In this document: one piece after another, positions 49,424-52,928 of the stretch
Position numbering within the stretch: position 1 is the first letter of the stretch
How the letters are laid out: the number at the start of each line of letters is the position of its first letter
NCBI RefSeq assembly: GCF_026000115.1
Contig: NZ_AP026867.1
Span: 1-64,000 of the forward strand
Direction: 5' to 3'
Origin: Aureispira anguillae
GTDB taxonomy: Bacteria > Bacteroidota > Bacteroidia > Chitinophagales > Saprospiraceae
DNA: 64,000 nt
Notes under the pieces: generated by a model
The model's database searches: none
Seen by the model: the letters and a program-made list of their open reading frames with translations, nothing else
Told to the model about the DNA's origin: nothing
Translations under genes and position numbers: made by a program

Positions 49424-49999
49424 CTATTCGTCATCGTCTAAGGTAATATAGCCCCAGTCAATTCCTTTCTCAATTTTTCTTAATTGAGCCATTGTAATAT
49501 TGAAGTTTTTTGCCAAAATCTGTTTTTTTGTTTTTCCTTCTTTTAAACGTTGTTTCAGCAACTTAACCCGTGTAGGATTCATTTTGTTTAATGGAGATGG
49601 TTTTCTGTTTTTTGGATCGTAAACTCCATTCTCAATCTGAAAATCCGTCATTTCTCGTTGTGTCATCCATTTTAGATTTTGATAATGATTGTTGAGATTA
49701 TCTTGATCTAAATGAACAACAAATTTTTGATCTTCATTTTGTTTGGGACAAAACTCCTCAGCCACTAACTTGTGGATATAACAACCTTGAGTAGAGTTTC
49801 CTTGGAGTCTTAGGTTTAAGAGCATAAAACCTTGAACCGTTTTAGAACCTTTTAAGAGTTGTTCTGCTTGATTAATTTTGTCAATACTTTTTACCCTTCC
49901 ATAGTCAGAAAAGTAGTATTCTTTTTGTTTGGTAGGAGTCCTAGTAATTACTTTTGCCCAGCGTTCATTCCAAAAACTCTTAATTTTATTAACTGTCAT
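49424..49999 (-). CDS. Free-standing NUMOD4/HNH homing-endonuclease-like protein
   Basis: The 191-residue protein opens with a NUMOD4-like block (WAKVITRTP ... EYYFSDYGRVKSID) and has an HNH_3-like core: HKLVAEEFCPKQ, VVHLDQDNLNNHYQNLKWMT. The expected His and Asn residues are present. A short C-terminal helix-turn-helix-like part (KTKKQILAKNFNITMAQLRKI) could bind DNA. Such proteins cut DNA and are usually encoded by mobile introns, inteins or phages. It lies 440 bases downstream of the intein-bearing dnaB. No host intron is visible. Confidence 0.8.
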   Translation of the reverse strand: MTVNKIKSFWNERWAKVITRTPTKQKEYYFSDYGRVKSIDKINQAEQLLKGSKTVQGFMLLNLRLQGNSTQGCYIHKLVAEEFCPKQNEDQKFVVHLDQDNLNNHYQNLKWMTQREMTDFQIENGVYDPKNRKPSPLNKMNPTRVKLLKQRLKEGKTKKQILAKNFNITMAQLRKIEKGIDWGYITLDDDE

Positions 50000-50441: not shown

Positions 50442-52928
50442 CTAAAAAGGAACATCATCGATACCTGTATCATTGCCATTGGCTTCATTCATTTTAGAAG
50501 AAAAAGTTTCGCCACTCAACTGGTTATTGGCTTGGTCAAAGAAACTAGAATCATCTAAGCCCGTAAAGGCATCATCATCCAAGTTTGAGAATTTGGCGTA
50601 TTGTCCATCCCATTTCAAACGAACAGAATCTAGTGCTCCATTTCGATGTTTAGCAACAATAATCTCGCCAATTCCTTTGAGTGAATTTCCTTCTTCATCT
50701 TCCAATATCTGATAATACTCAGGACGATAGATGAACGATACAATATCAGCATCTTGCTCAATCGCTCCAGATTCCCTTAAATCAGATAACTGAGGTCGTT
50801 TGGATCCCCCACGAGTTTCTACCGCACGAGATAATTGGGATAAGGCAATAACAGGAACATTTAATTCCTTTGCCAATCCTTTGAGACCACGTGAAATCAT
50901 CGAAATCTCTTGCTCACGATTTCCTTTGTTATCCCCACCTCCAGTCATCAACTGCAAGTAATCAATGATAACCATTTGGATATCATGCTGCATTTTTAGA
51001 CGACGACATTTAGCACGCAATTCGAAAATACTAATACCAGGCGTATCATCAATAAAAAGAGGTACGTTACTCAATTTGTCTACTTGAGCATGCAGTTGTT
51101 GCCATTCGTAATCTTCCAATTGCCCTTTACGAAGTTTTTCGGAGGGAATTTCTGTTTCCATAGAGATTAGACGATTGACTAATTGCAAAGAGGACATCTC
51201 CAAAGAGAAAAAAGCGACTCCTTTGTTAAAATCAATAGCAGCATTTCTAGCTACAGCCATTGTAAAAGAGGTATTATGCGTAACGGTCATATCCTCTAAT
51301 AAAAATAAATTATTTTTGTCTAGCGTAAACCCATAATAATTATCTACGACATCTTCTACTACAGTAATATCAGTAGCTTGCCAATCTATAGTTGCCTCCC
51401 AAGGAGAGGCTGTATGCTTAGTAATTTTAGTAGGAATGCTACTAATAGCTCCATAGATGTTGATGCTAGTTTCATTCAATATCGTTCTAAAGCCTAGAGA
51501 GTCGCACAAAAATTTAATTTGTTGAGCTAAATTTTCGTTCGTTAGGCTAATTTTATAAGCACTAGCTTGGACTAAGCACTGCCCACAACTATCAATTAGC
51601 CCCGCTAATAGATCAAGTCGTTTTTGGGTAGAATTGATTAAAAATGATTGAGGGATATGGTTATTATCAATAAGATTGAGCTGTTGGAGCTGTTGTGTTA
51701 ATTGACAAGTAACATCGCTATTTGGATTCCCTTCCAAGGTATGATTCAGGTCTTGATCTGTTGAATCATAGGTATTGGTTAGCAATTGTTGTTGCTTGGC
51801 AAATTGTTGCCAATAATCAGCCATTTTCTTTTTGGGCAAGGTAGCCTTGTCTTTTCCTAGCCATAAGCCAATAAAATAGGGCGGAAGGAGCGTATCTTGA
51901 GTCGGAAACTCAACTGCAACTTTATACCCTTTATAATTAGATTGAAAGGCAGCAGACTTAGTTAACCAATCTCGAACAGAGATGTTTAGGATCGCTCCCT
52001 TTTTATCCTTTCCATTAGGATTGGTGCACTTAAGGGATAAAATATGACTCTCATTAACTCGATAACTAATGCCTTTGTTCTGGTGAATCCAATACATTTT
52101 TTCTTTGCCACGAGCAATAGAACATACTTTGCGAGGAGTCGAATCATCGCCCATTAGCAAATCGCCTGCTACAACATCTTCGACCTTTTGGACACGACCA
52201 TCGTACATTAAAACCTTGGTTCCTTTGGCTAGACATTTTCCCATACCAGGTCGAGCAGCAATAATAATCAAATCAGAAGGCTGCCAACCTGAGGTTAATT
52301 TATCCAAGTTTACAAAACCTGTAGGAACCCCTGTTAAGCCCTCTTCTTTGCCACTCATTTCTTCTAATTGCTTAACAGCCATATTAACCAAGGTACTCAT
52401 TCCTAATGAACCACGGCTTAAGTTCTGTTCTGTAATATTAAAGAGATTTTGTTCCGCACTATCCAATAAATCAAATACGTCAACAGTATCTTCATAAGCC
52501 GATTTGATGGTTTCGGTTGAGGTACGAATTAGTTCTCGTTGGATAAATTTCTGAGCAATAATTCGAGCATGAAATTCAATATTAGCAGAAGAAGCGACTC
52601 GATTGGTTAATTCTACCAACTGATAAGGGCCACCCACCATTTCAAGTTTGCCCATTTTTTTGAGTTCCTCTGTTACAGTCAAAAGGTCAATCGGATGACT
52701 TTTTTCGAATAGAACACAAATTGCTTTGTAAATATGTTGGTGAGCTTCTTTATAAAAAGAGGCAGGACGTAGAATATCAATAATAAGTGCTACCGCATCC
52801 TTATCAAGCATCAATGCCCCCAAGACAGCTTCTTCTAGGTTAGTTGCCTGAGGTTGTACTTTTCCATGCTCTGAATAAGAGTTGGTTTTTTTAGTGTATT
52901 TCTTTGTGAAATTCTTTTTTTCGTCCAT
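50442..52928 (-). CDS. dnaB: Replicative DNA helicase DnaB containing an intein
   Basis: DnaB unwinds DNA at the replication fork. The 828-residue precursor contains the normal N-terminal domain (about 25-130), the RecA-like helicase domain, and a 321-residue intein after Lys231 of the P-loop (PGMGK then T). After splicing the helicase would be 507 residues, the normal size. Walker A (ARPGMGKTS once joined), Walker B IDYLQLM, and LSDLRESGAIEQDADIV are intact. The P-loop placement means the unspliced protein cannot bind ATP properly. The gene is preceded by a clear promoter. Confidence 0.96.
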   Translation of the reverse strand: MDEKKNFTKKYTKKTNSYSEHGKVQPQATNLEEAVLGALMLDKDAVALIIDILRPASFYKEAHQHIYKAICVLFEKSHPIDLLTVTEELKKMGKLEMVGGPYQLVELTNRVASSANIEFHARIIAQKFIQRELIRTSTETIKSAYEDTVDVFDLLDSAEQNLFNITEQNLSRGSLGMSTLVNMAVKQLEEMSGKEEGLTGVPTGFVNLDKLTSGWQPSDLIIIAARPGMGKCLAKGTKVLMYDGRVQKVEDVVAGDLLMGDDSTPRKVCSIARGKEKMYWIHQNKGISYRVNESHILSLKCTNPNGKDKKGAILNISVRDWLTKSAAFQSNYKGYKVAVEFPTQDTLLPPYFIGLWLGKDKATLPKKKMADYWQQFAKQQQLLTNTYDSTDQDLNHTLEGNPNSDVTCQLTQQLQQLNLIDNNHIPQSFLINSTQKRLDLLAGLIDSCGQCLVQASAYKISLTNENLAQQIKFLCDSLGFRTILNETSINIYGAISSIPTKITKHTASPWEATIDWQATDITVVEDVVDNYYGFTLDKNNLFLLEDMTVTHNTSFTMAVARNAAIDFNKGVAFFSLEMSSLQLVNRLISMETEIPSEKLRKGQLEDYEWQQLHAQVDKLSNVPLFIDDTPGISIFELRAKCRRLKMQHDIQMVIIDYLQLMTGGGDNKGNREQEISMISRGLKGLAKELNVPVIALSQLSRAVETRGGSKRPQLSDLRESGAIEQDADIVSFIYRPEYYQILEDEEGNSLKGIGEIIVAKHRNGALDSVRLKWDGQYAKFSNLDDDAFTGLDDSSFFDQANNQLSGETFSSKMNEANGNDTGIDDVPF
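51273..52235 (-). mobile_element. Intein in DnaB (321 residues, LAGLIDADG type)
   Basis: It starts with Cys (CLAKGTKVLMYDGRVQKVED), contains block B-like VNESHILSL, and ends FTLDKNNLFLLEDMTVTHN with Thr as +1 residue. Splicing blocks A, B, F and G look intact. The endonuclease motifs are FIGLWLGKD and LAGLIDSCG; the catalytic acidic positions (normally D in GDG and DxDG) are Lys and Cys. So splicing is predicted to work and DNA cutting to be lost. Confidence 0.92.

Follow-up and report, generated by a model that had tools for sequence, protein, structure and literature searches.

Why inteins retain endonuclease domains that are long and useless has no settled answer, and experiments that deleted the domain from individual inteins conflict. 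The PhoVMA intein of Pyrococcus horikoshii (PDB 7qst) lacks active-site residues in both LAGLIDADG helices and keeps the fold. As described in PMC8966425, it splices, does not cleave its site and shows no detectable binding to it; splicing continues when the dead domain is removed, and the authors take this to mean that mutualism did not arise in PhoVMA. For the Methanocaldococcus jannaschii intein MjaTFIIB, in contrast, efficient splicing reportedly requires the degenerate endonuclease domain; deletion of the endonuclease domain impairs the splicing of TFIIB inteins (PMC6801210) and of the TliVMA intein (PMC8966425). The yeast VMA1 inteins are described as a mix of active and inactive alleles (PMC1508164). 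In Mycobacterium smegmatis, site b of DnaB, located in the P-loop, is occupied by DnaBi1 (PDB 6bs8; PMC6195587), a class 3 mini-intein without an endonuclease domain.

The window analysed here is a 64,000-nucleotide stretch from Aureispira anguillae (Bacteroidota; Saprospiraceae; contig NZ_AP026867.1, positions 1 to 64,000). It holds an intein at the same DnaB site as DnaBi1, but of class 1 and full size. Like PhoVMA, this intein lacks active-site residues in both LAGLIDADG helices and keeps the predicted fold; like MjaTFIIB, it has a degenerate endonuclease domain. PhoVMA differs in being archaeal, in its VMA-b site, in a block E deletion and in splicing without its dead domain, whereas the window intein sits in a bacterial DnaB P-loop and can be compared with close live, dead and empty relatives. 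The dependence of MjaTFIIB on its domain was tested by deletion; that of the window intein is proposed from selection only. The closest solved structure, by sequence and by fold, is PI-SceI, a yeast VMA1 intein. Inteins that keep both catalytic acids are called live, those that have lost both are called dead, and dnaB genes without the intein are called empty.

The intein in dnaB

All features of the locus lie on the minus strand. The 828 aa open reading frame at 50442..52928 is DnaB by its match to TIGR00665 (score 540 bits, cut-off 385) and is interrupted in frame by a Hom_end_hint match (PF05203, E 7e-21). The 321 aa intein, precursor residues 232-552, occupies 51273..52235. It is preceded by the N-extein (DnaB residues 1-231, 52236..52928), which ends in RPGMGK by alignment with intein-free dnaB, and is followed by the C-extein (50445..51272), which begins at Thr+1. 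The Walker A motif is thus split as PGMGK/T, at the position named DnaB-b after PMC6195587. Four dnaB genes without an intein in the same genus read straight through PGMGK/TAF, and the intein boundaries are therefore fixed.

The splicing (Hint) domain is encoded in two parts, an N-terminal part with Cys1 and block B His64 (intein residues 1-118, 51882..52235) and a C-terminal part with Asp289 and His320-Asn321 (residues 284-321, 51273..51386). Cys1, His64 and His320-Asn321 are invariant across eight aligned inteins and the +1 residue is Thr, as in class 1 inteins. A preliminary description of this DNA had placed a P-loop intein with intact splicing residues in DnaB at exactly these coordinates and had proposed a comparison with intein-free relatives; the profile matches, the split motif and the invariant residues bear out the first two statements, and the comparison, now made, confirms the insertion point. 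DnaB is needed by the cell, and the window genome (98.6% complete, 7.8 Mb, three contigs) has a single DnaB match at E <= 1e-20. It is plausible that DnaB would be inactive until spliced, given the P-loop position and the RadA precedent quoted in PMC6195587.

Loss of the endonuclease active site

The endonuclease domain spans intein residues 119-283 (51387..51881) and retains both LAGLIDADG helices (119-126 and 203-217), nested within Hint; their motifs read FIGLWLGKD and LAGLIDSCG. Asp218 and Asp326 of PI-SceI are the metal-coordinating pair of the active site (PMC1508164). These residues align with Lys128 (AAA, 51852..51854) and Cys217 (TGT, 51585..51587) of the window intein, so that neither helix ends in a catalytic acid. 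Both positions are Asp in 19 acid-intact relatives, and each of the two codons is at least two changes away from GAT or GAC. Near motif 1 the sole acid is Asp129, which follows the catalytic position by one residue. In motif 2 only Asp215 remains; live inteins conserve it too, and it does not occupy the catalytic position. The block D lysine, corresponding to the catalytic Lys301 of PI-SceI, is replaced by Asn192 (AAC, 51660..51662). The loss of both catalytic aspartates claimed in the preliminary description is thus upheld, and the alignment that it called for offers motif 2 no substitute acid and motif 1 only the displaced Asp129. DNA cutting and binding by this domain have probably both been lost, to judge from its residues. 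As a separate observation, the window intein has seven cysteines (1, 38, 70, 177, 217, 220 and 244) against four in the live intein of G006, and one of them, Cys217, stands at the second catalytic acid position.

An AlphaFold2 model built from 41 sequences (mean pLDDT 85.2, pTM 0.85; residues 157-165 below 50) keeps the endonuclease fold. In a Foldseek search with this model the top match was PI-SceI (TMq 0.82), and the PhoVMA intein, itself degenerate, came at rank 13. With its acids lost and its modelled fold kept, the window intein belongs with the degenerate-endonuclease inteins. At 321 aa with a full endonuclease domain it is not a mini-intein, and it is about 19 residues shorter than its live relatives.

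Empty, live and dead alleles in Aureispira

Nine Aureispira genomes were compared. Four have an empty dnaB (G001, G004, G005, G007), two have an acid-intact intein (G006, G002) and three have a dead one: the window genome, G000 (LGKD, DSCG), and G003 and G008 (both LGLG, DSSG). Empty, live and dead alleles thus coexist in one genus, as the homing cycle predicts. In the tree of the dnaB host gene, G006 pairs with the empty G001 (98/99), and G000 groups weakly with G003/G008 (69/68). In the intein tree the Aureispira inteins group together, with G000 and G003/G008 forming a clade (98/98); the two branches so joined are long, and the program warned that the join may be false. Because of this warning and the weak host-gene grouping, two separate losses within the genus are possible. 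The end branches of the dead Aureispira inteins measure 0.81 and 0.86, compared with a median of 0.17 and with 0.11 for live G006. Co-conversion tracts were sought in one pair, live G006 and empty G001, and third-position divergence was not raised near the insertion point.

A gene for a NUMOD4/HNH_3 protein (49424..49999, minus strand) is separated from dnaB by 442 bp and has the same orientation. Such a gene stands beside dnaB in G000, G003 and G008, in live G006 and in empty G001 as well, but is absent from the stretches read beside dnaB in live G002 and empty G005. G004 and G007, in which dnaB is near a contig end, were left out of this comparison. The gene tracks clade rather than intein state and therefore does not look like a helper nuclease, a role made unlikely by its presence beside empty G001 and its absence beside live G002. 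The co-occurrence of nuclease gene and element that marks homing in trans is not seen in the genus. The NUMOD4/HNH_3 family is multi-copy in the genus, and the window genome has a second copy at C1:369867-370427.

Other nuclease sources were sought in the window genome. A profile of seven inteins of this kind matched the window intein and no second relative. PF14890 and PF14528 gave no match over the cut-off, a weak negative because both families also miss the window intein itself. A single scan of viral contigs for a viral source yielded one distant relative, at 21% identity.

Frequency of acid loss across families

In the Saprospiraceae, the family of the window genome, 26 of 298 genomes match the intein profile. 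Two were set aside: G722, whose intein is in another helicase, and G747, cut by a contig end. Read without gaps, seven of the 24 classifiable inteins lack both acids (G000, G003, G008, G718, G652, G825, G726), although for G652 (LIDSAPDW) the alignment assumes a two-residue insertion, under which the second acid is retained. G028 lacks the second acid only, and the other 16 keep both. All seven dead inteins are 318-339 aa long. In a second family, that of G245 (204 genomes), 51 of 51 inteins at the P-loop site keep both acids. In the family of G060 the P-loop intein occurs in two of 13 genomes, intact in G060 and with a degenerate first motif in G913. A further set of 91 rows combined the best 80 of 249 relatives from named species genomes, a choice biased to intact inteins, with eleven others and included four duplicates; 86 of its rows read D/D (85 by pattern, plus L122), the exceptions being the window intein, G003, G008, G028 and L100. 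In L009 and L100 only the second acid is changed (Asp to Asn); these may be nickases or first steps of decay.

The dead inteins outside Aureispira have end branches of 0.96 to 4.31 (G825, 4.3); long branches are also found for the acid-intact G678 (0.97) and for G913 (1.46). The dead inteins occur in different genera; five separate acid losses are likely, although the tree placement of G718, G652, G825 and G726 is poorly supported. Inteins with degenerate endonucleases are a kind already known; new here is the recurrent loss of both acids at the DnaB P-loop site in the family sample. In the literature library searched, no paper linked Aureispira with an intein, and for Bacteroidetes DnaB inteins with a homing endonuclease there was a single match, on phages.

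Mini-inteins were absent from the P-loop site in both families: the 24 Saprospiraceae inteins measure 318-370 aa, and in the second family the range over 51 inteins is 340-349 aa. Intein parsing required at least 200 residues, and the matched spans show none shorter at the site except the contig-cut G747; a mini-intein too diverged for the first profile look would be missed.

Several other arrangements were noted. A second DnaB insertion site (LRE/C...HN/S) is occupied in L008 and L217 and, by split matches, in G009, G014, G030 and G034. G011 and G726 have both inteins in one dnaB gene; in G726 the P-loop intein is dead and the second has the first motif IGDG. A relative of the window intein, L215, lies in the P-loop (GAGK/S) of a different helicase in G722 and has both acids. 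P-loop DnaB inteins of Campylobacterota (L088, L103, L106, L111, L117, L126, L131, L133) nest within the Bacteroidota intein tree with support 88, which suggests transfer between phyla or misbinning, several of these records being metagenome bins. In the family of G245 the intein profile also has distant matches (G471, G468, G525, G651 and others), which lie inside open frames roughly 1350 aa long.

Selection on the dead domain

Pairwise dN/dS, largely saturated, gave way to a codon likelihood model of 19 of the 34 inteins in the tree; the other 15 were the long-branched G825, the single-acid or otherwise odd inteins G028, L100, G913 and G734, four duplicates and another six live inteins. Omega for the endonuclease domain is 0.067 on live and 0.313 on dead branches, rough values because synonymous sites are near saturation between species, and the dead branches include time before the acids were lost. 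Two rates fit better than a single omega (2ΔlnL 80.8), and dead-branch omega differs from 1 (2ΔlnL 47.9). With the dead branches of Aureispira alone (11 taxa) the endonuclease omega is 0.293.

The relaxation is uneven. In the LAGLIDADG helices, with the acids excluded, omega is 0.070 on dead and 0.030 on live branches (2ΔlnL 39.1 against dead = 1), whereas the non-helical part of the domain gives 0.450 and 0.057, respectively, with a range of 0.45-0.50 on dead branches over the runs. Other helices vary: live and dead values are 0.065 and 0.124 for helix 234-246, and 0.083 and 0.327 for helices 136-148 and 176-185 together. When all helices of the AlphaFold2 model are combined, dead versus live omega is 0.147 versus 0.062 (2ΔlnL 12.1), that is, some relaxation; helical blocks chosen post hoc give 0.064 versus 0.050, no relaxation, and this is a cleaner picture than that from the model-derived partition.

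Single sites show the same unevenness. Conservation of at least 95% in 19 live inteins is found at 43 endonuclease sites, 41 without the two acids. In six dead inteins (G008, a near-copy of G003, was dropped), 17 of the 41 are kept in all six and 12 in at most two; none of 20000 shuffles reached this unevenness, and the result is the same with one row per clade. The sites kept in every dead intein are, in G006 numbering, Tyr120, Gly123, Pro200, Asn206, Arg211, Leu212, Leu214, Leu215, Ala216, Gly217, Asp220, Lys246, Cys249, Leu252, Gly253, Gly281 and Pro287. Those kept in at most two are Gly129, Ile136, Lys197, Asn230, Glu233, Gln236, Lys237, Lys261, Arg276, Arg278, Lys293 and Ser300. Site retention and omega by structure together indicate that catalytic and probable DNA-contact sites are gone and that the core of the domain is still selected.

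Selection on the Hint domain

In Hint, omega is 0.026 for live branches and 0.060 for dead ones, and it stays within 0.02-0.06 over the codon-model runs. This low value, and the lack of a second DnaB match, suggest that the window intein is competent for autocatalytic splicing.

Some Hint residues differ between live and dead inteins. The comparison used 119 distinct inteins: 108 live, 6 dead and 5 set aside. Position 308 in G006 numbering, where the window intein has Asp289, is Gly in 106 of the 108 live inteins, whereas the six dead ones have D, D, D, E, T and D (Fisher p 1e-8 without correction, with 103 Hint columns scanned and rows that are not independent); among those set aside it is Asp in G028 and Gly in L100, G913 and G734. 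Ser71 and Arg72 (each 108 of 108 live), Glu74 (106) and Lys96 (107) are lost in five or six of the six dead inteins. Asn53 (108 of 108 live) is lost in four of them and kept in the window intein. The Hint domain of PI-SceI contacts DNA, and these six positions (308, 71, 72, 74, 96 and 53) may likewise touch the homing site.

Origin and persistence of the dead intein

The preliminary description had held that the intein should be trapped or depend on another nuclease to move. The first is well supported by the loss of both acids, of the block D lysine and of several probable DNA-contact residues, as well as by the long branch and the relaxed selection. The second finds no support, the HNH gene following clade and the genome holding no second related intein.

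The account that we consider probable, with real room for error, is that of an immobile class 1 intein that still splices, lost its endonuclease once in the ancestor of its clade and keeps the dead domain as a scaffold. The intein would splice out of the only DnaB found and could no longer home. The loss of both acids would most likely be a single event in an ancestor that the window genome shares with G003/G008, with vertical inheritance of the intein thereafter. The intein would stay because the cell needs DnaB and a clean deletion from the P-loop is presumably rare, and its dead domain would keep the core helices because the splicing domain relies on them for its folding or for the alignment of its halves. 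The grounds for this last step are the selection on the helices, the same pattern in other lineages and domain-deletion experiments on other inteins, some but not all of which show such dependence. A HEN-Hint mutualism like that of MjaTFIIB and TliVMA may exist here, with helix constraint and the lack of mini-inteins as its basis and PhoVMA as the counter-example.

The scaffold step is made uncertain by PhoVMA, biochemically the nearest analogue, and a folded, harmless insert is a serious rival, if a rather unlikely one. On this reading too the intein splices and is dead and trapped; Hint, however, is independent of the domain, whose core is kept only since misfolding would damage the DnaB precursor. 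The constraint on the fold may indeed mean only that a misfolded insert harms the precursor, the pattern of constraint would be the same, and PhoVMA does splice after deletion of its dead domain (PMC8966425). A dispensable domain should, however, permit mini-inteins, of which the two families have none at this site; in-frame deletions may simply be rare.

That the domain decays neutrally after inactivation, and persists because in-frame deletions are rare, is improbable. The relaxed non-helical parts and the shortened length of the window intein agree with it, and in the endonuclease domain of one inactive yeast VMA pair, an extreme example, dS/dN is 0.67 (PMC1508164). The dead domains here, in contrast, are constrained overall, with omega below 1 for the whole domain and far below 1 in the LAGLIDADG helices, and uneven retention follows structure.

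That the dead domain was recruited to control DnaB activation through conditional splicing, by binding DNA or by sensing stress, is quite improbable. A mycobacterial DnaB P-loop intein responds to oxidation (PMC6195587), and the window intein has its additional cysteines, one at a former acid. Only Cys1 and the cysteine of FLCDS are shared with G003, however, and the loss of probable DNA-touching sites in dead inteins argues against DNA binding.

It is very improbable that the endonuclease still works, through displaced acids or as a nickase: Asp129 adjoins a lost position and single-acid variants exist (G028; L100, D/N), but in G003 and G008 an acid is missing both from each of the two positions and from the residue that follows it, the window intein has no substitute in motif 2, and the block D lysine has been lost together with probable DNA-contact sites. 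Least credible is spread in trans by another nuclease that cuts empty dnaB, perhaps the neighbouring NUMOD4/HNH protein; such domains do occur in homing enzymes and the gene is close by on the same strand, but its distribution among live and empty alleles and the lack of a second related intein in the genome speak against it.

Significance

At the DnaB P-loop site, related bacteria can be compared that have a live intein, a dead intein of the same family or an empty allele, and the acids were lost repeatedly. A bolder view, which we regard as unlikely, is that repeated inactivation at this site in the Saprospiraceae has made the dead endonuclease into a dedicated splicing domain; selfish inteins would then have turned into obligatory two-domain splicing proteins unable to shrink to mini-inteins, some of which may gate DnaB by redox or temperature. 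Residues that probably serve homing only (G006 numbering) are both acids, Lys197 and Lys261 in the endonuclease domain and Ser71, Arg72, Glu74, Lys96 and Gly308 in Hint. Those kept without homing are above all in the LAGLIDADG helices. This site pattern gives testable predictions of the parts of an endonuclease on which a splicing domain depends.
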